Of a DNA stretch of 64,000 nt, positions 4,438 to 59,055 are shown piece by piece. The DNA lies in the NCBI RefSeq assembly GCF_036556685.1, contig NZ_CP140614.1:620001-684000 (forward strand). The letters run 5' to 3'. A model generated the notes under the pieces. It did not search any database. It was not told the DNA's origin and worked only from the letters and a program-made list of their open reading frames with translations. Made by a program: the position numbers and the translations under genes. The first letter of the stretch is position 1. The number at the start of each line of letters is the position of its first letter. Source of the stretch: Sulfurospirillum sp. 1612. GTDB taxonomy: Bacteria; Campylobacterota; Campylobacteria; Campylobacterales; Sulfurospirillaceae.

Positions 4438-4527
4438 ATATGCATCATCAGCTACTTCACTTTTTTAATACGATGTTTAAAAAGATTATACTATGATTTG
4501 AAATCAAATTTTTTTCTAGGATACATC

Positions 4528-5520
4528 ATGATGTTTAAAATAGCGCTACTTATCTCTTTTGTTTGTTCTTTCTTGTCTGCGGCTCCTGAGTATACAATAC
4601 GTTTTTCTCACGTCGTCTCACCTAAGACACCCAAAGGAAAAGCAGCACTTTTTTTTAAAGACAAACTCGAATCCCTAACGCATGGCAAGATTGCGGTCAA
4701 AGTCTATCCTAACTCCAAACTCTTTAATGATTCACAAGTCTTACAGGCGATGAAAAAAGGGCAGTTAGAAATGGCGGTGCCGAGTCTCTCAAAACTCTCT
4801 ACTTTAGTACCTCAAGTTGAAATTTTTGATTTGCCTTTTTTGTTTGACAATATGGAACACATCCATAGGGTGATGCGGGGTACAGTAGGAAATACTCTCA
4901 AACAATTGATTACCAACAAAGGTTTTATTGCGCTTGATTATTGGGACAATGGATTCAAACAGCTCTCCTCTTCTAAGACTCCGCTTTTTTCTCCTCGGGA
5001 TGCGCAACACCAAAAATTTAGGATTATGAATTCTGAAGTACTAAAAGAACAATTTAATGCTGTCGGTGCCCAAGCAGAGGTCTTGCCATTTTCAAAAGTC
5101 TATGAAGCACTCAAATCGCATCAAGTAGATGCAGCTGAAAATCCTCTTTCAAATTTTTATACCAAAAAGTTTTATGAAGTTCAAAACAGTTTGGTTTTGA
5201 GTTCGCATGGATATTTGGGATATATTATGCTCATGAGCAAAAGTTTTTGGGATAAATTGCCAAAAAATTTGCAAAAAGATGTAAAACAAGCCAGTGATAT
5301 GGCAACGCAGTATGAGAGAAAATTGGCAAAAGAGATGGAGAGTTCTTACCTAGATAAACTTCAAGAGTATGCAAAAACACATCCAAACTTTCATATTTTA
5401 CGTTTAAATAAAAATGAACGTGATGCGTGGAAACGTGATATTAGTATCATCTACCCAAAATTTTATCCTAATATCGGATTAAAATTGATTGATGAGGTCG
5501 AAAAGGCTAGATATCAATAG
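4528..5520 (+). CDS. DctP-family TRAP solute-binding protein, orphan paralogue
   Basis: This 331-residue periplasmic binding protein has a signal peptide (residues 1-19, cleavage near LSAAP). The DctP fold is recognisable throughout: YTIRFSHVV, the PKGKAA segment, the LDYWDNGFK block, the QKFRIM Arg that normally contacts the substrate carboxylate, and DAAENPLSNF. It is closely similar to the dctP product at 8014-9006 along the whole length. I chose ATG 4528 because TAGGA lies six bases upstream; an in-frame TTG at 4498 would add ten unlikely residues. There are no DctQ or DctM genes beside it. It converges on, and overlaps by 14 bases, the sensor kinase gene. A role as ligand-presenting co-sensor for that kinase is an inference; an alternative is a second receptor sharing DctQM. 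Confidence 0.9.
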   Translation: MMFKIALLISFVCSFLSAAPEYTIRFSHVVSPKTPKGKAALFFKDKLESLTHGKIAVKVYPNSKLFNDSQVLQAMKKGQLEMAVPSLSKLSTLVPQVEIFDLPFLFDNMEHIHRVMRGTVGNTLKQLITNKGFIALDYWDNGFKQLSSSKTPLFSPRDAQHQKFRIMNSEVLKEQFNAVGAQAEVLPFSKVYEALKSHQVDAAENPLSNFYTKKFYEVQNSLVLSSHGYLGYIMLMSKSFWDKLPKNLQKDVKQASDMATQYERKLAKEMESSYLDKLQEYAKTHPNFHILRLNKNERDAWKRDISIIYPKFYPNIGLKLIDEVEKARYQ

Positions 5521-7069
5521 GGATGACGATTGTAAATCGTGCTCCCATATCGCGGTTGGTGGCTAGTAGTTTGCCGCGCATATTCTTTTCAATAATCATT
5601 TTAGACATGTAAAGCCCAATGCCTGTGCCATTGGCATTCCATTTGGTGCTGAAGTAGGGTTCGAATATTTTTTCAATCGGTCTGGTTTTGATGCCAGGCC
5701 CATTATCATCTATATTGATAGTGGCTTGGTCTTCCATTTTATTAATCGTAATTTCAACTGCTTTATTCTCGACATCAGATTCGCTCAGCGCATCTTTGGC
5801 ATTGGAGAGGATATTTAAAAGCACTTGCTCAAATTCGTTTTGATATCCTAATATTTGGGCGTCTTCTTTGATAGTGATAGCGAGTTCAATCTTCTGATTT
5901 TGGATGGTTTTACCGATAATTTTGAGGACATTTTCTAGCGAATTTTTAATACTAAAGTGTTTTTTATCTCTTTGTGGATTAAAGAAATTTCTAAAATCAT
6001 CAATCGTATTGGACATATAATCCAACAATACTTCAGCATCTTTGCTCTTTTCATCCATGATTTTTGAATCCAGTTTCCCCATAACATAGCGAAATTTGAT
6101 GTTCATGATAATCGCAGAGAGTTCAGACAGCGGTTGCCTCCATTGATGCGCAATATTGCTAATCATCTCTCCCAGTGCGATAAATTTGGACTTTTCGATT
6201 AAGAGTCGCTCTTGTTCCCCTCTTTTGGCGACTTCTTTTGCTACTCGTAGTTCTAGTGTTTTATTAAGCTGTTCTAATTCGACGGTTTTTTCTTTGATTT
6301 CTTGATTGTATTGTTTGAAAAATCGATCGATTTGTTTTCCTAGTATAATCGCCAAAATATTAGCAATGAGTGAGAAAAACAAGAAGATGGCGATTGATGA
6401 GGTGATATCTAAACTCATCTTGCGTTTTAGATTGGCCTTTTTTTGTGCTATTTTGGTGTCGATATTGTCCAGATATGTTCCTGCTGCTACGACCCAATTC
6501 CACTTTTTGTAGAGTTTAAAATACGATACTTTCGGACGTATTTCATGGGTGTCTGGTTTTTTATAGAGGTACTGGACAAAAGAATAGCCTTGTTTTTTTA
6601 TGTCTTGGAGAAAAATCTTGCGAAACGTTTTGCCATTGGCATCTTGGTAGTTGGCTGAGATAAATTTACGAATTAAATCTTGGCGATTTGGATTGACGAG
6701 CATTCTGGCAAATTGGTCTCCCCCTTTGTAATCTAAGACTTCATACACAAAAATATAGTTGCTTTGATCTTCACCAAATTTTATATGTTTGATGAGTTCA
6801 AGGGTGTCTTGCTTGAGTGCTTTTTCACTGAGTCCGTGAGAAGATGATCTTCGGTATTTTATGTATTCGATGACGGAGTCTACTTCTCTTTGAATTTCAT
6901 TTTTTTTGACATTGACAAAGGCTGTTTTCATATCTTTGATTTCTCGATCCAAAATCGCATATTGTTTCGAGATAAAAAAGTAGCTAATCACAATAACCAA
7001 AGAGCTGATGATAAACATCGAACTTAAGATAATGACAGTGGAAATGTTGTCTTCTTTGAGTATTTTCAA
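5507..7069 (-). CDS. Cache-domain sensor histidine kinase (probable C4-dicarboxylate sensor)
   Basis: The 520-residue protein has membrane segments at about 12-33 and 222-246 enclosing a periplasmic single-Cache domain (about 40-215, ending WVVAAGTYLDNID). A coiled coil follows (about 250-295), then the phospho-acceptor His308 in IAHQWRQPL, an N box NILSNAKDAL and G boxes DNGPGI and GTGIGL. Translation begins at a TTG with GGAT upstream. Its likely partner is the OmpR-type regulator divergently encoded at 7189, and the dctPQM genes follow that regulator. Cache sensors of this type detect small carboxylates, so control of C4-dicarboxylate or related acid uptake is the most economical reading. 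The ligand is not shown by sequence. Confidence 0.88.
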   Translation of the reverse strand: MKILKEDNISTVIILSSMFIISSLVIVISYFFISKQYAILDREIKDMKTAFVNVKKNEIQREVDSVIEYIKYRRSSSHGLSEKALKQDTLELIKHIKFGEDQSNYIFVYEVLDYKGGDQFARMLVNPNRQDLIRKFISANYQDANGKTFRKIFLQDIKKQGYSFVQYLYKKPDTHEIRPKVSYFKLYKKWNWVVAAGTYLDNIDTKIAQKKANLKRKMSLDITSSIAIFLFFSLIANILAIILGKQIDRFFKQYNQEIKEKTVELEQLNKTLELRVAKEVAKRGEQERLLIEKSKFIALGEMISNIAHQWRQPLSELSAIIMNIKFRYVMGKLDSKIMDEKSKDAEVLLDYMSNTIDDFRNFFNPQRDKKHFSIKNSLENVLKIIGKTIQNQKIELAITIKEDAQILGYQNEFEQVLLNILSNAKDALSESDVENKAVEITINKMEDQATINIDDNGPGIKTRPIEKIFEPYFSTKWNANGTGIGLYMSKMIIEKNMRGKLLATNRDMGARFTIVIPIDI

Positions 7070-7188: not shown

Positions 7189-7863
7189 ATGGATGAAAAA
7201 ATGCTTGAGAAACTCTCAAAATATTCTGTACTTTATGCAGAAGATGAAGCCGGTATTAGACAAAACGTTGCAGAGATGTTATCACTATTTTTCAAAGAGG
7301 TTTATCTTGCAAAAGATGGTATGGAAGCGTATGAACTTTTTGTAGAAAAATCTCCAGATTTAGTGATTACAGATATTAAAATGCCCATACTTGATGGGAT
7401 TGAACTCACGAAAAAAATACGAGAACAAGACTCCAAAGCACAGATTTTAATCCTCTCTGCCTACACTGAGGTTGATTATATGTTGGCCGCAGTCGAACTC
7501 TCTTTAGTGCGTTATATTGTGAAGCCGATTACCGAGACAAAACTAGTAGATGCATTAAATAAATTTCTAGAATCAAAAGAGAGCAGTGGTATGATTGAGT
7601 TTCATGATGGTTGGTTTTATGATACGCATAAGAAGCAGATTATTCATGAAGACCAAGTATTTGAATTGACGAAAAAAGAAGTCAAGTTTCTCGAGCTCAT
7701 TTTTGAACGTGATAGTGTGATTACTTACGAAGAAATTGAACGTGAACTGTGGGAAGATGAATACATGAGCCTCAATGCTTTGCGTTTGATGATGAAAAAC
7801 TTAAGAAAGAAGCTACCAAAAGGGAGTTTAAGAAATATACAAAGTGTTGGTTACAAGTTGTAA
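7189..7863 (+). CDS. OmpR/PhoB-type response regulator
   Basis: This 224-residue protein has a receiver domain (about 10-125; acidic pocket Glu18-Asp19, phospho-acceptor Asp62 in VITDIKMP, Lys in the YIVKPI motif) and a C-terminal winged helix (about 140-224, ending VGYKL). ATG 7189 is preferred because AAGGGG at 7176-7181 precedes it; an upstream in-frame ATG at 7162 lacks a ribosome site. It is divergent from the Cache kinase and immediately upstream of dctPQM, so it is the natural regulator of that transporter. Paired TGTWAC-like boxes near dctP, the porins and livK are candidate targets. The last bases of the gene lie inside a 15-bp palindrome containing the same box. Confidence 0.92.
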   Translation: MDEKMLEKLSKYSVLYAEDEAGIRQNVAEMLSLFFKEVYLAKDGMEAYELFVEKSPDLVITDIKMPILDGIELTKKIREQDSKAQILILSAYTEVDYMLAAVELSLVRYIVKPITETKLVDALNKFLESKESSGMIEFHDGWFYDTHKKQIIHEDQVFELTKKEVKFLELIFERDSVITYEEIERELWEDEYMSLNALRLMMKNLRKKLPKGSLRNIQSVGYKL

Positions 7864-7980
7864 CAAGAATTTTTTGATTTTTTCTATTTGTTACTAATTG
7901 TAATAAAATTTTCACAATAACTGCTTTGTTTCTCAATTTTTATTCACCTACATAATATAGACACATCTTTTTATTATAAT
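7850..7980 (+). promoter_or_regulatory. dctP upstream region: TGTWAC boxes and -10 element
   Basis: A perfect 15-bp palindrome GTTACAAGTTGTAAC spans 7850-7864 across the regulator's stop codon. A second box pair, TGTTAC (7889-7894) and TGTAAT (7899-7904), has a 10-bp period. A TATAAT -10 lies at 7975-7980 with no recognisable -35, as expected for an activator-dependent promoter. The box pair starts 86 bp upstream of the -10. Confidence 0.6.
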
Positions 7981-8013
7981 CAATTTGAATACAAAATTTT
8001 CAAGGAGATTGTT

Positions 8014-9006
8014 ATGACAAAATTTGTTAAAATTGCTGCTGTTGCAGCACTTTTAGTTTCTTCAACTTTTGCGGCGGATTATACTATTAAATTCTCGCAT
8101 GTTGTAAGTCCAAATACACCAAAAGGTAAGGCAGCTGACTTTTTTGCTAAGCGTGTCAAAGAGTTGACCAACGGCAAAGTGAAAGTGATTGTTTTCCCAA
8201 ATTCACAACTTTATACTGATAAAGCGGTTATGAAAGCATTGAAAATCGGTAATGTTCAAATGGCATGCCCAAGTTTTTCAAAATTTACTTCTTTAGTGCC
8301 TCAACTACAACTTTTTGATCTACCATTTTTATTTAAAGGCAATGACGGCCTTCACAAAGTTATGGATGGTAAAGTGGGACAAAAATTGAAAGATTTAGTG
8401 ACAGCAAAAGGTTTTGTCGCACTTAACTATTGGGATAATGGTTTCAAAGATATGTCATCAAACAAAAAACCGATTCTTTGGCCAAAAGATGCAGATGGAC
8501 AAAAATTTAGAATCATGAGCTCAAAAGTACTCGAAGCACAATTTAAAGCAATCGGTGGTAATCCACAAGTACTTCCATTCTCAGAAGTTTACTCAGCCCT
8601 TCAACAAGGTGTTGTGGATGCAGCAGAAAATCCACTCTCAAATTTTTGGACTAAGAAATTTTATGAAGTACAAACTTCTTTGACTTTGACACAACACGGT
8701 TATCTTGGTTATCTTGTTGTTATGAGCAAGAAATTTTGGAACAAATTGCCAGCTGATTTAAAACCTAAAATCATTCAAGCGATGAATGAAGCAACAATCT
8801 ATGAGAGAAAAGAAGCGCAAGCACTTGAAGATTCATTCTTGAAAAAGATTGAAGGCTATGCCAAAAAAACAGGCAAATTGAAAGTCTATACTTTGACACC
8901 AGAACAAAGAGCAGCTTGGGTCAAAGCACTTGAAGTTATTTATCCAAAATTCTATGGAACGATTGGAAAAGATTTGATCGAAGAAGCGAAAGCAGAACAA
9001 AAATAG
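8014..9006 (+). CDS. dctP: TRAP transporter solute-binding protein DctP
   Basis: A 330-residue periplasmic receptor with signal peptide (1-20, cleavage after TFA) and full DctP-family sequence, including YTIKFSHVV, the carboxylate-binding Arg in QKFRIM and DAAENPLSNF. It captures a small carboxylate, probably a C4-dicarboxylate, and delivers it to the DctQM permease. AAGGAGATTG provides a strong ribosome site. It heads dctP-dctQ-dctM with only 27 bases before dctQ. It is the closest relative in the window of the orphan binding protein at 4528-5520. Substrate assignment comes from family and context. Confidence 0.93.
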   Translation: MTKFVKIAAVAALLVSSTFAADYTIKFSHVVSPNTPKGKAADFFAKRVKELTNGKVKVIVFPNSQLYTDKAVMKALKIGNVQMACPSFSKFTSLVPQLQLFDLPFLFKGNDGLHKVMDGKVGQKLKDLVTAKGFVALNYWDNGFKDMSSNKKPILWPKDADGQKFRIMSSKVLEAQFKAIGGNPQVLPFSEVYSALQQGVVDAAENPLSNFWTKKFYEVQTSLTLTQHGYLGYLVVMSKKFWNKLPADLKPKIIQAMNEATIYERKEAQALEDSFLKKIEGYAKKTGKLKVYTLTPEQRAAWVKALEVIYPKFYGTIGKDLIEEAKAEQK

Positions 9007-9033
9007 TCACAACAAAAAATAGGGGTAGTTAAA

Positions 9034-9612
9034 ATGGGAAAATTCTTTTCTTTGCTTGATTTGGGAGTTGCCACACTCAATAGAAACTTAGCAGTACTCG
9101 GCATGCTTTTAGGCGTGACGCTTGCTTTTGTCAATGTTGTATTGCGGTATGCTTTTGATGAGAGTTTAACGTGGGCTGGGGAGCTTACCAATTACTTATT
9201 TATGTGGGGGGCACTCTTTGGTGCCGCCTACGGGTTTAAAAGAGGCATTCATATACAAGTTACTATTTTATTAGCAAAACTTCCGGCATCTCTTGCAAAG
9301 GCATTTATGATATTTGCCCATACGCTATCATTCATATATTTATGTGTCATGGCATATCTTGGCTATCAATCTGTCGTGGTACTGATTGAGCTCAATGAGA
9401 TGAGCGTGGATCTGAATATCCCAATGTGGGTTCCGACATTAGTCTTGCCTTTGGCTTTTGGAGGTGCTGCCTATAGAGCGGCTGAAAAAGTATATGAAGT
9501 AACTAAAGAAGATGCAGATCAAGTACTCTCAAATTCTGAGTCAGAGTTGATTCATGATACTTCTGAGCGAACGGGAGTCGATGTCAAAGTAGAGAAAGGA
9601 GAACAATTATGA
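9034..9612 (+). CDS. dctQ: TRAP transporter small permease subunit DctQ
   Basis: The 192-residue protein has four membrane segments (about 18-38, 53-72, 90-112, 130-150) and the DctQ motif around FDESLTWAGELTNYLFMWGALFGAA. A charged tail of about 35 residues follows the last helix. DctQ forms the membrane scaffold that couples DctP and DctM. The gene overlaps dctM by four bases (ATGA), so the two are translationally coupled. Confidence 0.92.
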   Translation: MGKFFSLLDLGVATLNRNLAVLGMLLGVTLAFVNVVLRYAFDESLTWAGELTNYLFMWGALFGAAYGFKRGIHIQVTILLAKLPASLAKAFMIFAHTLSFIYLCVMAYLGYQSVVVLIELNEMSVDLNIPMWVPTLVLPLAFGGAAYRAAEKVYEVTKEDADQVLSNSESELIHDTSERTGVDVKVEKGEQL

Positions 9613-10889
9613 TTGCTACTCTTTTTATATTACTTTTTGTACTGATGTTAATTGGAGTACCCGTCGCGGTGAGTTTGGGTGCGAGTACGATGATCACAGC
9701 ACTCTTGTTTACCGATATGGATTTGATGGGGATTCCAGATAGTGTTTTTAATGGACTCGATCAATACTCTCTCATGGCGATTCCAATGTTTATCTTAGCG
9801 GGGGCACTGCTATCAAAAGGGAGCGCTTCGGGTCGAATTATCGAATTTGCCAAATCCATCGTCGGACATCTCCCGGGTGGTTTACCTATCGCTGCGATTT
9901 TTGCTAGTGTCATCTTTGCCGCTGTTTCAGGGAGTTCTCCTGCTACGGTTGTGGCGATTGGCTCGGTGATGTATGGTGCGATTAAAGAAGCCGGCTATCC
10001 TACTAAATATGCCATTGGAACAATTGCAACAGCAGGGAGCCTGGGTATCTTGATTCCCCCTTCTATCGTCTTTATCGTTTATGGTGTGACTGCAGACCAA
10101 TCAATCGGTAGATTATTTATGGCCGGTGTTGTACCGGGGTTGTTGATTGGTTTTATGTTGATGGCCGTAACCTATATAGGTGCAGTAAGATTGGGCTTTA
10201 AGCGAACCAAAATGGCACCGTTTAAAGAGCGCTTGATTGCGTTTAAGCGAGCTTTTTGGGCTTTGATGTTGATCGTCTTGGTTATCGGTGGAATTTACGG
10301 TGGTCTCTTTACCCCGACAGAAGCGGGAGCTGCGAGTGCTTTTTATGCATTTTTTGTCTCTTATTTTGTATATCGAGATATCAAGATTAAAGACTTGTAC
10401 AAAATCTTGCTTGATTCTGCGATGACCAGCTCGATGATTTTCTTCATTATTGCCAATGCGATGATTTTCTCACATTTCTTGACATTGGAAAGTATTCCTC
10501 AACAAATCACGCAATTGATAGTTGAGGCGCATGTGGGGCCGATTATGTTTTTGGTCATTGTCAATATTCTGCTTTTCCTTATGGGGCAGTTTATGGAACC
10601 AAGCTCAGTGGTCATGATTACCGTGCCTTTGTTGTTGCCAATCGCGACGACTTTGGGAATTGATCCGATACACTTAGGGGTTATCATGGTTATCAATATG
10701 GAAATCGGTATGATTACACCACCAGTGGGGCTCAATCTGTTTGTCGCTAGCGGCATCACAGGGCTCAGTCTCAAAGATGTCGTGGTCGCATCATTGCCAT
10801 GGGCGATGACGATATTGCTAGGATTGTTGTTGATTACCTACATTCCTATCATCTCGCTATGGCTTCCAAATATCATGTACGGATATTAA
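9609..10889 (+). CDS. dctM: TRAP transporter large permease subunit DctM
   Basis: A 426-residue, highly hydrophobic protein of the DctM family with about 11-12 helices. Signatures include GVPVAVSLG, the AAVSGSSPATVVAIG loop, GILIPPSI and a C-terminal ITPPVGLNLFV hairpin. It is the Na+- or H+-coupled transport subunit of the TRAP system. It overlaps dctQ by four bases and is followed by a strong hairpin at 10903, ending the operon. Confidence 0.95.
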   Translation: MIATLFILLFVLMLIGVPVAVSLGASTMITALLFTDMDLMGIPDSVFNGLDQYSLMAIPMFILAGALLSKGSASGRIIEFAKSIVGHLPGGLPIAAIFASVIFAAVSGSSPATVVAIGSVMYGAIKEAGYPTKYAIGTIATAGSLGILIPPSIVFIVYGVTADQSIGRLFMAGVVPGLLIGFMLMAVTYIGAVRLGFKRTKMAPFKERLIAFKRAFWALMLIVLVIGGIYGGLFTPTEAGAASAFYAFFVSYFVYRDIKIKDLYKILLDSAMTSSMIFFIIANAMIFSHFLTLESIPQQITQLIVEAHVGPIMFLVIVNILLFLMGQFMEPSSVVMITVPLLLPIATTLGIDPIHLGVIMVINMEIGMITPPVGLNLFVASGITGLSLKDVVVASLPWAMTILLGLLLITYIPIISLWLPNIMYGY

Positions 10890-10902
10890 AAGTAACATAT
10901 AC

Positions 10903-10937
10903 CAGCAGGCTACCGATTTTTTGGTGGTCTGCTGTTT
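10903..10937 (+). terminator. Terminator hairpin of dctPQM
   Basis: A 12-bp stem (10903-10914 with 10923-10934, two G-U pairs) encloses an eight-base loop and is followed by a short T tract. It closes the dctPQM operon before the porin promoter. Confidence 0.65.
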
Positions 10938-10975
10938 GATTTGTCCGACGCATTTACCGTTGGTTTACTCTTTTT

Positions 10976-11046
10976 TGTAACAATTTTGTAATATTACTCT
11001 CATTTCTGCTTTTTTTATTGATTTCTTCTAAACTTTTTGCTACAAT
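10976..11046 (+). promoter_or_regulatory. Porin 1 promoter with upstream TGTWAC boxes
   Basis: TTGATT (11018-11023), a 17-base spacer and TACAAT (11041-11046) form a good sigma-70 promoter. Upstream, TGTAAC (10976-10981) and TGTAAT (10987-10992) lie 11 bp apart and run into a GTAATATTAC palindrome. The boxes start 65 bp before the -10, 20 bp (two helical turns) closer than in the porin 2 and livK promoters. Confidence 0.65.
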
Positions 11047-11079
11047 GCTTGCGTAAATAAAATTTTTCAAGGAGATTAT

Positions 11080-12285
11080 ATGAAATTAGCTAAACTTAGC
11101 TTGGCAGCTATTACAGTAGCAAGTCTTTCTGCGAGTGCATTCGCAGCAGATTCACTTGCAAGCATGTTCAAAGACGGAACCGTAAATGGTACACTATCTG
11201 CGTATTATTTTAATAGAGATAGAGGTAATGGTGGTACTCCAGATAGTGCTAACATCCTAGACTTTGGTCTTGATTTGACTTATAAAACTGCAACTTTCAA
11301 TGGCTTTAGTGCTGGCGCTACAGTTCAAAGTACACACTCTCCATTTGCAAATGATGATGCAGCTGTAATGTTCAATGGTGACATGAATGGTGGTGGTGAA
11401 GTTTTCTCTGAAGCGTATGTTCAATATACAAATTCAGGCGTATTCTTCAAAGCAGGTCGCCAATACATCTCTACTCCAATCGTTGCGGGTTCTGGTTCTA
11501 GAATGACAAAAGAATCTTTTGAAGGTTACTTATTAGGTTATACTGGCCTTCCTAACACTACTTTAGTAGCAGGTTATGTTGCCCAATTCCAATCAAGAAC
11601 TGATGGAAATGGTAATATCGGTAAATTCACTAAAAACTTTGTTGTTCCTGGTGCAGGTTCAGTAGCATTAGATAAAGGTGCTTATACATTATATGCAGTT
11701 AACACTTCAGTTCCTGGCTTGAAACTTCAAGCACAATGGGGTGATGCTGTTGATGTTGTAAATATTTATTATGTACAAGCTGATTATGCTAGCAAAACTG
11801 ATAGTTTCAGCTACAACTTGGGTGGACAATACAGTGTATCTGATTATGATAGCAGTATAAGCAATGACAATGGTGGTTACTATGGTCTTAAAGCCGGTGT
11901 TGCTATGAATGGTATCAGTGCTGCTGTTGCTTACTCTAAAGTAGACAGTGATATAGGTGCTGTTTCAGGTTTAGGTAATGGTTCTGATAATATCTTTACT
12001 GCTCCAGCTATTGCAGGTGGTGATTATACAGCAGATAACAAAGCATGGAAAATTGATTTAGGCTATGCTATCAATAAAAATGCAAATGTTAATGCATACT
12101 ACAACACAACTGATATGCAAGCAGCAAATTCAGATTACGATGTTTATGGAGCGGGCGCTGGTTACAAATTCGAAGGCACTCTAAAAGGTCTTGGTGTTGT
12201 AGCTCAATATGAAATTAAAAGCTTTGATGATAGTTCAAAAGACGATGACAAAAGATTTAGATTTAAAGCAACTTACGCTTTCTAG
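11080..12285 (+). CDS. Outer-membrane porin 1 (Campylobacterota Opr-type)
   Basis: The 401-residue beta-barrel has a signal peptide (1-22, cleavage after AFA), alternating aromatic/polar strands, many Gly/Asp/Asn turns and a C-terminal Phe preceded by FRFKATYAF, the insertion signal recognised by the BAM complex. It starts with AAGGAG eight bases upstream. It is the first of two tandem paralogues whose first 22 residues are identical. It sits between a TRAP and an amino-acid ABC transporter and shares promoter boxes with both, which suggests it admits organic or amino acids. That substrate range is inferred. Confidence 0.9.
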   Translation: MKLAKLSLAAITVASLSASAFAADSLASMFKDGTVNGTLSAYYFNRDRGNGGTPDSANILDFGLDLTYKTATFNGFSAGATVQSTHSPFANDDAAVMFNGDMNGGGEVFSEAYVQYTNSGVFFKAGRQYISTPIVAGSGSRMTKESFEGYLLGYTGLPNTTLVAGYVAQFQSRTDGNGNIGKFTKNFVVPGAGSVALDKGAYTLYAVNTSVPGLKLQAQWGDAVDVVNIYYVQADYASKTDSFSYNLGGQYSVSDYDSSISNDNGGYYGLKAGVAMNGISAAVAYSKVDSDIGAVSGLGNGSDNIFTAPAIAGGDYTADNKAWKIDLGYAINKNANVNAYYNTTDMQAANSDYDVYGAGAGYKFEGTLKGLGVVAQYEIKSFDDSSKDDDKRFRFKATYAF

Positions 12286-12305
12286 TCTTTGTTAAATCTT
12301 TTTTA

Positions 12306-12341
12306 AAGCCGGGTCCCACCTTTGTGGGCTCGGCTTTTTTT
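12306..12341 (+). terminator. Rho-independent terminator of porin 1
   Basis: AAGCCG pairs with CGGCTT, and an inner CCCAC pairs with GTGGG, followed by seven T residues. A homologous terminator follows porin 2. Confidence 0.9.
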
Positions 12342-12380
12342 ATGCCCAAAATTCTACTTTTTTGTCAAAACCTTTTGATG

Positions 12381-12471
12381 TGTTACTTTTTCTTACATAA
12401 TTCTTCTAAATTTTTCATTGTTCAAAATTTAATCACATTTTTTTAGAATCTGAAAAAAAAGCTGGTAAAAT
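12381..12471 (+). promoter_or_regulatory. Porin 2 promoter with TGTTAC box
   Basis: TGTTAC (12381-12386) and TCTTAC (12391-12396) form the upstream box pair. The core is an extended -10, TGGTAAAAT (-10 at 12466-12471), with a weak -35 (TTAGAA, 12443-12448). The block from 12447 to 12471 differs from the livK promoter at one base only. Confidence 0.65.
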
Positions 12472-12500
12472 TATCTCGTTCTTAAATTAAAGGAGATTAT

Positions 12501-13733
12501 ATGAAATTAGCTAAACTTAGCTTGGCGGCCATCACAGTTGCAAGTCTTTCTGCGAGTGCATTCGCAGCAGATTCACTTGCTGGAATGTTCAAAGAAGGTA
12601 CTGTAAATGGTACACTATCTGCGTATTATTTTTCTAAATCAGGTCAAACACCTACGAGCAATGCCTTATATGGTGGTGCTACATATGATAGTGCAAGTAT
12701 TCTAGACTTTGGTCTTGACTTGACTTATAAAACGGCATCTTTCAATGGTTTCAGTGCAGGAGCTACTGTTCAAAGTACACATTCTCCATTTGCAAATGAC
12801 GAAGCAAAAACGATGTACAATGGTGATATGTATGGTTCTGGCGAAGTTTTCTCTGAAGCGTATATCCAATATGATAACTCTGGATTTATGTTCAAAGCGG
12901 GTCGTATGTACTTAGGTACTCCATTGGTCGCTAGTTCTGGTTCTAGAATCACAAAAGATTCTTTTGAAGGTTACTTACTCGGCTACACCGGTCTTCCTGA
13001 CACTACTTTAGTAGCAGGTTACATTACAAAATGGCAAGATAGAACCGATGGTGCAGGAAATATGGGTACATTTGTAAATGTTAATACAGCACTTTCCACT
13101 GGAAGTGATAGTAATGGTGCTTACACATTGTATGCGGTAAATAAATCAGTTCCAGGTTTAACACTACAAGCACAATGGGCTCAAGTTGTTGATGCTGTAG
13201 ATTTATACTATGTACAAGCAGATTATGCTGGTAAGACAGATAGCTTTACTTATGCTTTAGCGGGTCAATTCCAAATTACTGATTATGATGCATCAGGTGT
13301 GAAAGATAGTGGATATTATGGCTTGAAAGCTAATGTTGGTATGGATGCATTTGGCTTAACTGTTGCCTATTCTAAAATAGACAGTGACAATGATGCCGGA
13401 ATCGGACTTGGTAATGGTCCTGACCCAATCTTTACAGCAGGTACTATAAATTGTGGCGATGACTATACAGCTGATGAAAAAGCTTATTTAGTACAATTAG
13501 ATTATGCATTTAATAAAGCTACAAATTTTAATGTTTATTATGTCAAAGCAGAGACACCAGATTCTACTAGTACTACAGATGACTATGATGCATATGGTGC
13601 AGGGGCAGATTATCAATTTGATGGTGCTTTAAAAGGCTTAGGCTTAGTTGCTCAATATGAAGTTAAAAGTTTTTCAGAAGGCACAAATGCTGATGACAAA
13701 AGATTTAGATTTAAAGCAACTTACGCTTTCTAA
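12501..13733 (+). CDS. Outer-membrane porin 2 (paralogue of porin 1)
   Basis: A 410-residue outer-membrane barrel with the same 22-residue signal peptide as porin 1, strong similarity along the whole length, and the same C-terminal FRFKATYAF ending in Phe. Differences cluster in predicted surface loops (for example an insertion near residues 30-42), as expected when two porins diverge in pore selectivity. The ribosome site and first codons are copied from porin 1, but the promoter resembles that of livK rather than that of porin 1. A terminator follows at 13754. Confidence 0.9.
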   Translation: MKLAKLSLAAITVASLSASAFAADSLAGMFKEGTVNGTLSAYYFSKSGQTPTSNALYGGATYDSASILDFGLDLTYKTASFNGFSAGATVQSTHSPFANDEAKTMYNGDMYGSGEVFSEAYIQYDNSGFMFKAGRMYLGTPLVASSGSRITKDSFEGYLLGYTGLPDTTLVAGYITKWQDRTDGAGNMGTFVNVNTALSTGSDSNGAYTLYAVNKSVPGLTLQAQWAQVVDAVDLYYVQADYAGKTDSFTYALAGQFQITDYDASGVKDSGYYGLKANVGMDAFGLTVAYSKIDSDNDAGIGLGNGPDPIFTAGTINCGDDYTADEKAYLVQLDYAFNKATNFNVYYVKAETPDSTSTTDDYDAYGAGADYQFDGALKGLGLVAQYEVKSFSEGTNADDKRFRFKATYAF

Positions 13734-13753
13734 TCACTGCTAAATCTTATTTC

Positions 13754-13789
13754 AAGCCGGGTTCACATTGTGTGGGCTCGGCTTTTTTT
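13754..13789 (+). terminator. Rho-independent terminator of porin 2
   Basis: AAGCCG pairs with CGGCTT around an inner stem, followed by seven T residues. It is a diverged copy of the porin 1 terminator. Confidence 0.9.
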
Positions 13790-13843
13790 ATGCTCAAATT
13801 TTCTTCTTTAATTATTAATTTTTATTATTCAAAATCCTTAATT

Positions 13844-13934
13844 TGTTACCATTTTGTACAGAATGAAACTCTATTTTCAATTGTTTAAAAATTAGGCATA
13901 TTTTCTTGCAATCTGAAAAAAAAGCTGATAAAAT
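13844..13934 (+). promoter_or_regulatory. livK promoter with TGTWAC boxes
   Basis: TGTTAC (13844-13849) and TGTACA (13855-13860) lie 11 bp apart. The core promoter is TTGCAA (13906-13911), a 17-base spacer, then TAAAAT (13929-13934) with an upstream TG (extended -10). The box-to--10 distance is 85 bp. Confidence 0.7.
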
Positions 13935-46044: not shown

Positions 46045-46078
46045 TGTAATAAGATTGTTACCTTCAAAATGTTATAAT
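46045..46078 (+). promoter_or_regulatory. pyk promoter with TGTWAC-like boxes
   Basis: An extended -10 (TGTTATAAT, -10 at 46073-46078) is preceded by TGTAAT (46045-46050) and TGTTAC (46056-46061), 11 bp apart. Here the boxes overlap the -35 position rather than lying far upstream. The leader to the pyk ATG is about 85 bases. Confidence 0.5.
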
Positions 46079-58422: not shown

Positions 58423-59055
58423 ATGAAAATTTTATTACTTGAAGATGACATCGCTTTAGGCGAAACCATACAGGATTTATTAGAAGAGAACAATTACAAA
58501 GTCGATTATGTCATAACGGGCAATGAAGCCATAGACTCTAGTTATGACAACAAATATGATTTATATATTTTTGACATCAATGTGCCTGATATTGATGGGC
58601 TTGATATACTCAAAGCCCTAAGAGAGGCAGACGATAAAACTCCTGCTATATTTATCAGTGCGATGACTGATTTAAAAACAGTTTTAAAGGGTTTTGAAGT
58701 GGGAGGTGATGATTTCATTAAAAAGCCATTTTATCCTGAAGAGCTGTTGGCTAAGGTCAATCTCAAACTTGCTAAAGAAGATAAAACTATCATCTTCGGT
58801 AATATAACATTCTTCACAAAAGATGAAAAAATGGAAAAAAATGGAAAAAGTATCTACCTTGGTGGCATACAACTCAAACTCTTCAAACTCTTTATCAACA
58901 ATACGAACCGCATCATCACCAAAGATGAGCTATATGAGTGTTTGGAAAAACCTAGCGAAAGTGCTTTGCGTTTTCACATAAATAGACTCAAGAATTCTAC
59001 CGGATTTGATATTAAAAACATAAGAGCAAGTGGGTATATCCTTGAGAAGAGTTGA
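58423..59055 (+). CDS. OmpR-type response regulator (metal island system 2)
   Basis: A 210-residue regulator with phospho-acceptor Asp51 (IFDINVPDIDG), Lys in DFIKKPFYPEE and a C-terminal winged helix ending IRASGYILEKS. It is similar to the regulator at 49192. No good ribosome site is visible before the ATG. It overlaps its kinase gene. Confidence 0.9.
   Translation: MKILLLEDDIALGETIQDLLEENNYKVDYVITGNEAIDSSYDNKYDLYIFDINVPDIDGLDILKALREADDKTPAIFISAMTDLKTVLKGFEVGGDDFIKKPFYPEELLAKVNLKLAKEDKTIIFGNITFFTKDEKMEKNGKSIYLGGIQLKLFKLFINNTNRIITKDELYECLEKPSESALRFHINRLKNSTGFDIKNIRASGYILEKS

Follow-up and report, generated by a model that had tools for sequence, protein, structure and literature searches.

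The dctP locus of Sulfurospirillum sp. 1612 was analysed within a 64,000-nucleotide stretch of contig NZ_CP140614.1 (positions 620,001 to 684,000 of the forward strand), hereafter the window, whose numbering is used throughout unless genome positions are named. At this locus a sensor histidine kinase gene and the gene of an OmpR-family response regulator are divergently oriented, and the regulator gene is followed by dctPQM, which encodes a tripartite ATP-independent periplasmic (TRAP) transporter, by two porin genes and by livK. The original prediction for this DNA had placed dctP, both porins and livK in a single regulon of the regulator, acting through tandem TGTWAC sites. The genes and promoter elements of the dctP region are as follows.

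5507..7069, minus strand: sensor histidine kinase with a periplasmic sCache_2 domain (Pfam sCache_2 1.8e-23, HATPase_c 1.5e-18)
7189..7863, plus strand: OmpR-family response regulator (Pfam Response_reg 3.4e-24, Trans_reg_C 5.3e-10)
7850..7864, no strand assigned: box 1, dyad GTTACAAGTTGTAAC, overlapping the regulator's last codons and stop
7890..7904, plus strand: box 2, dyad-type GTTACTAATTGTAAT, 85 bp upstream of the -10 and conserved in relatives
7950..7966, plus strand: 11-bp tandem repeat ACATAATATAGACACAT, ACAYAA-N5-ACAYAW, proposed regulator operator, 25 bp before the dctP -10
7975..7980, plus strand: dctP -10 hexamer TATAAT, a consensus match (TATAAT, TATACT or TACAAT at equal offset in relatives)
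8014..9006, plus strand: dctP, TRAP solute-binding protein (TIGR00787 2e-100)
9034..10889, plus strand: dctQ (9034-9612) and dctM (9609-10889), TRAP membrane subunits, assigned by their position after dctP and by the same order in relatives' orthologues

The receiver and winged-helix Trans_reg_C domains of the regulator each exceed the curated Pfam cut-offs. Comparisons were made with about 40 related genomes, and pattern scans were run across 44 genomes. Orthologues of the regulator are 62-78% identical within the family and 46-58% in two further families. The kinase and regulator genes adjoin in all orthologous loci examined, and the order kinase-regulator-dctPQM-porins-livKHMGF is widely conserved within the family. 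Convergent with the kinase gene lies a second TRAP binding protein gene (DctP, 4498-5520) without QM genes of its own; among the relatives examined it is present only in the source genome and G003, and its product could act as a co-sensor.

The tandem repeat in the -35 region recurs at a fixed position. Of 29 non-redundant dctP promoters, 27 have ACAYAH-N5-ACAYAH at exactly 25 bp upstream of the -10, which in family f10 and in L118/L120 was placed by a repeat-anchored pattern. These promoters span three families, including f10 and the Arcobacter-type f9, in which regulator and kinase are arranged differently and the repeat is still present. In dctP promoters 29 such pairs were counted, compared with 0.08 in shuffled sequence, while none of four dctP promoters lacking dctQM carried one. 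Extended to the -10, the pattern ACAYAA-N5-ACAYAW-N8-TATAMT occurs in 37 of the 44 family genomes and its reversed control in none; the single match in the source genome is the one at dctP. Its second recurrent place across the family is dctA (SDF family). Matches confined to single genomes stand at one DASS symporter gene and one Mqo-like gene, and in three g3 genomes (G020, G037 and G039) the composite lies near another response regulator. Where dctPQM has been relocated away from the regulator (G037, G041), repeat and box 2 are both retained. The geometry of the repeat also matches that of a Pho-box-like site at pstS (25 versus 26 bp to the -10). At porin 1, porin 2 and livK the ACAYAA repeat is missing, with 5/12 matches each. 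OmpR/PhoB-family regulators would be expected to have a tandem direct-repeat operator of 10-11 bp period close to the -35, and the conserved repeat occupies just that position. It is most likely a better candidate operator for the OmpR-type regulator than the TGTWAC boxes, and this regulator is predicted to control C4-dicarboxylate transporters rather than porins or the uptake of amino acids.

The boxes themselves are found where they had been described. TGTWAC-type sequences start at 7889 (dctP), 10976 (porin 1), 12381 (porin 2) and 13844 (livK), at 86, 65, 85 and 85 bp, respectively, from the -10 hexamers used (TATAAT 7975, TACAAT 11041, TAAAAT 12466 and TAAAAT 13929), so that the reported helical phasing of the four sites is reproduced. 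The perfect palindrome at the 3' end of the regulator gene is likewise present and spans the stop codon. Compared among relatives, however, the dctP boxes read as GTTWC-N5-GWAAC dyads rather than as tandem sites, located 75, 85 or 95 bp before the -10. In non-redundant upstream regions the pairs at dctP have a 10-bp period (GWWAC-N5-GWWAY, 37 seen versus 0.35 in shuffled sequence), with none at 11 bp, and 31 of the 37 score better as inverted than as direct repeats. No box was seen on reading the divergent region between kinase and regulator, and a recurrent sequence of the genus, GTTACAATTAGTAAC, was dropped as it lies within a conserved gene.

Box 1 has 9-10 of the 10 core bases of GTTAC-N5-GTAAC in all family genomes in which dctPQM directly follows the regulator, and at most 7/10 where dctQM or dctP is missing from that place. 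Its sequence depends on infrequently used codons (TAC, 23% among Tyr codons; TTG, 30% among Leu codons), and a C directly after the stop codon was found in 2 of 30 genes sampled. Its decay is visible between near sisters, L063, without dctQM, having GCTACAAACTGTAGT versus GTTACAAATTGTAAC in L065. In f10 box 1 is mostly missing despite dctPQM downstream, and the association of box 1 with dctPQM is thus limited to the source genome's family. The distance from the start of box 2 to the -10 is 85/86 bp in most genomes, 75 or 95 bp in the others and 75/76 bp in f10. The Sulfurospirillum-type loci L057 and L059-L063 have dctP after the regulator and no dctQM there; they have lost box 1 and the -35 repeat and keep a remnant of box 2 (GTTACNAAAAGAAGC at 75 in most), and several of these genomes have the operator at dctA instead.

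Throughout the 2.38-Mb genome the anticipated enrichment of the paired motif did not appear: the strict pair gave 9 matches, two of them inside coding DNA, versus 4 for the reversed pattern, no numerical excess, and GTTAC-N5-GWWAY gave 24 matches at 21 distinct places versus 46 in the control. The expected preference for uptake genes was recovered from placement at TRAP loci. Of nine TRAP binding-protein loci, three have GTTAC-N5-GWWAY no more than 300 bp away and plausibly placed for a promoter element (0.024 expected, P ~2e-6; P ~2e-4 without the dctP locus), and at a fourth the motif lies inside the preceding gene.

Dyads precede dctA, other TRAP operons and ATP-binding cassette (ABC) binding-protein genes in one helical phase. 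Of 12 dctA loci, 11 have the dyad at 85/86 bp from the -10, in reverse orientation relative to dctP, and the twelfth is cut by a contig end. Another kinase-regulator pair (L234, genome positions 1530000-1541000, and L249) has a dyad 84 bp before its dctP; there the -35 region has a different tandem repeat, TGTCATACACTTGTCAT, and the regulator is 25% identical to that encoded at 7189. Dyads also lie 74/75 bp before a TRAP operon having a normal TTGACA -35 (L236/L246) and, in two genus members, upstream of an SBP_bac_8 gene, the distance being 84 bp in the one that was measured. Over eight unrelated promoters the phase coherence amounts to R=0.83, and 37 of 20000 random sets were equally coherent. 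The L234/L249 locus repeats the architecture of the dctP locus, its dyad spanning the stop codon of that regulator.

Since some of these promoters are without the 7189 regulator, a shared second factor is likely, and a common protein binding the dyads is probably the simplest reading. CemR/HP1021 is a candidate for this factor and, by analogy, a lead to follow: the GTTWC core fits the HP1021 half-site KGTWDCD, although the first base is often A. Among 28 matches to OmpR-type regulators in the source genome none could be named as CemR, no CemR reference sequence having been used. Tentatively, at somewhat less than even odds, we suggest an undescribed global nutrient-uptake regulator, perhaps the orthologue of CemR/HP1021, that would use as operators the GTTWC-N5-GWAAC dyads, helically phased at 75, 85 and 95 bp before the -10. 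It would do so at promoters of dicarboxylate and other binding-protein genes, several of which have a response-regulator site of their own at -35; one dctPQM operator would then lie at the end of the specific regulator's reading frame, across its final codons and stop, and decay when the operon leaves.

Alternatively, the 7189 regulator might bind both the -35 tandem repeat and the upstream dyads, with cooperation along one face of the helix like that between the distal and proximal sites of OmpR. At both dctP and dctA repeat and dyad stand together with a fixed spacing, and box 1 is lost together with the TRAP operon, as this explanation would have it. Yet the two elements have no half-site in common, dyads also stand at promoters served by a different regulator or by none, and Arcobacter-type relatives retain the repeat with no clear dyad. 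On balance we consider binding of both elements by one protein rather unlikely.

Downstream of dctPQM, the sites upstream of the porins and livK are the following.

10977..10992, plus strand: porin 1 pair GTAAC-N6-GTAAT (11-bp type), 64/65 bp from the -10 here and in G003
12382..12396, plus strand: porin 2 upstream site GTTACTTTTTCTTAC, weak, 84 bp from the -10, failing the TGTWAC consensus
13845..13860, plus strand: livK upstream site GTTACCATTTTGTACA, weak, 84 bp from the -10

The proposed consensus TGTWAC-N4/5-TGTWAY describes dctP, porin 1 and the palindrome and fails at porin 2 (TGTTAC/TCTTAC) and livK (TGTTAC/TGTACA). As to conservation at orthologous promoters, the pair is kept at dctP, is shared at porin 1 by no more than three genus members (the site occurs in the same aligned promoter in G004, L257), and is not conserved at porin 2 and livK. 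As had been suspected, the promoter of porin 2 and that of livK are related copies, sharing GAAAAAAAAGCTGRTAAAAT at equal spacing, and therefore count as one independent case. In other members of the genus the livK promoter shows nothing beyond ATTAC-N6-ACAC, at 75. In non-redundant upstream regions the porin pairs are of the 11-bp type only (12 versus 0.26 in shuffled sequence), with corresponding counts of 5 versus 0.16 at livK; in relatives the porin and livK pairs are absent or close to the start codon, largely at other promoter positions than here.

The 11-bp form GTAAC-N6-GTAAY shows no excess over the control in the 44 genomes, and many of its matches are in coding DNA or at phosphate genes. 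It precedes PstS-like genes (source genome, G006 and G032), a BPD_transp_1 permease gene and genes for a phosphonate-binding protein and PPK2, indicating that Pho-like sites are part of the mix. The pairs at porin 1 and in the porin/livK regions of relatives might accordingly have nothing to do with dctP and be Pho-box-like sites at which a PhoB-type regulator binds. The repeat spacing at porin 1 fits this explanation, but the site lies 64 bp from the -10 as against 26 bp at pstS, and in Sulfurospirillum-type porins the site is downstream of the apparent -10. We regard it as unlikely and assign the porin 1 pair to no regulator; the porin 2 and livK sites, weaker still, are likewise unassigned. 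The PstS-like gene at L272 (genome position 1414620), with the Pho-box-like TGTAACCGTTTTGTTAT 26 bp before its -10, marks a candidate Pho regulon of the source genome. Porin genes of the Sulfurospirillum type (L057, L058, L059, L060, L061, L064, L065 and L262) have a conserved Pho-like GTAACCAAATGGTAAT that follows the apparent -10 and precedes the start codon, a position like that of a repressor site. Elsewhere in the window, an intergenic 11-bp pair, TGTAATAAGATTGTTAC (46045-46061), is found upstream of the pyruvate kinase gene (46168), and the response regulator at 58423-59055 has a winged-helix match below threshold (22 bits versus a cut-off of 26).

A single regulon of dctP, both porins and livK, as originally proposed, is not borne out and now appears very improbable. 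The one helical phase of the four sites, the conserved gene cluster and the retention of the porin 1 site in three genus members speak for it. On the other hand, porin 2 and livK fail the consensus and amount to one case, the porin and livK pairs have 11-bp spacing as opposed to 10 bp at dctP, and the sites of relatives are absent or near the start codon. Moreover, the ACAYAA repeat is absent from these promoters, the dyads occur in both orientations at equal distance (dctP versus dctA), and they are found where the response regulator differs (L234/L249) or the -35 is normal (L236/L246). Chance matches in AT-rich DNA are plausible for porin 2 and livK, the pair being without genome-wide excess, but as a general explanation they can practically be discarded, since conservation and geometry exclude chance at dctP. 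Porins 1 and 2 and livK are not demonstrably part of either regulon.

Taken together, we put a probability of about 0.68 on the locus being a C4-dicarboxylate two-component system with a two-part dctPQM promoter, and not a porin/livK regulon; conservation, fixed geometry, co-loss with dctQM and co-occurrence at dctA are the grounds for this. The Cache-domain kinase would sense a periplasmic acid, probably a C4-dicarboxylate, and phosphorylate the OmpR-family regulator. The phosphorylated regulator would bind ACAYAA-N5-ACAYAW in place of a -35 and activate dctPQM as PhoB does at its box. The dyads, box 2 at 85 bp and box 1 over the stop codon, would form a second operator, through which a shared, probably dimeric factor may act on many uptake promoters from one helix face.

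Several points weigh against this assignment. It is drawn from sequence comparisons, and the relatives compared are phylogenetically related, so that counts are not independent. Consensus guided the choice of the -10 hexamers, which left some latitude at a few promoters. The association of box 1 with the TRAP operon comes down to about four changes on the tree, and an independent-pairs test was not significant. The composite matches near the other response regulator (G020, G037 and G039) and at the Mqo-like gene (G017) are without a dyad or not at transporters. The first half of the repeat could partly be a -35 substitute, and the regulator itself could bind both elements, which co-occur at dctP and dctA.

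A sensor kinase and a regulator encoded beside C4-dicarboxylate transporters are known from DctB/DctD, DcuS/DcuR and the Rhodobacter DctS/DctR system, whose regulators DctD, DcuR and DctR are of the NtrC, CitB and NarL/FixJ type, respectively. The dctP locus likewise combines kinase and regulator, but its regulator is of the OmpR type. The PhoB-type Pho box resembles the dctP repeat in having 11-bp tandem half-sites that replace the -35 at a similar offset (26 bp at the pstS-like gene of the source genome versus 25) and differs in half-site sequence and target genes. Within the same phylum, RacR/RacS of Campylobacter jejuni is also a two-component system controlling C4-dicarboxylate genes; RacR regulates dcuA, dcuB and aspA according to oxygen and nitrate, without binding to dctA (PMC5293742), whereas the predicted targets of the regulator studied here are dctPQM and dctA. 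PceP (RR2) of Sulfurospirillum multivorans, from the same bacterial family, is likewise an OmpR-family regulator with direct-repeat operators, which either overlap the -35 or lie a further 50 bp or so upstream of it, at 85 bp from the start site (PMC7755780). OmpR-type regulators of the Sulfurospirillum group thus use both -35-overlapping and upstream sites. PceP differs in its operator, CTATW-N17-CTATW, and in its targets, tetrachloroethene respiration genes (PMC7755780), as opposed to ACAYAA-N5-ACAYAW and C4-dicarboxylate transport at the dctP locus. For HP1021 the box is KGTWDCD (PMC8266642), to which the GTTWC half of the dyad is similar. CemR (Cj1608) is conserved across most Campylobacteria, and its deletion alters many nutrient importers and raises DctA (PMC11334517). 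An inverted-pair arrangement is not described for CemR/HP1021 in these reports (PMC11334517, PMC8266642).

For an OmpR-type C4-dicarboxylate regulator the present analysis names a specific candidate operator, ACAYAA-N5-ACAYAW at 25 bp upstream of the -10, and dctPQM and dctA as predicted targets, in a field whose textbook systems use other regulator classes. Box 1, lying across the stop codon of the regulator gene, is a clear case of DNA that is apparently both coding and regulatory. The dyad common to unrelated uptake promoters points to a shared regulator of carbon or energy status, and separating the -35 operator from the phase-locked dyad makes the CemR hypothesis directly testable.

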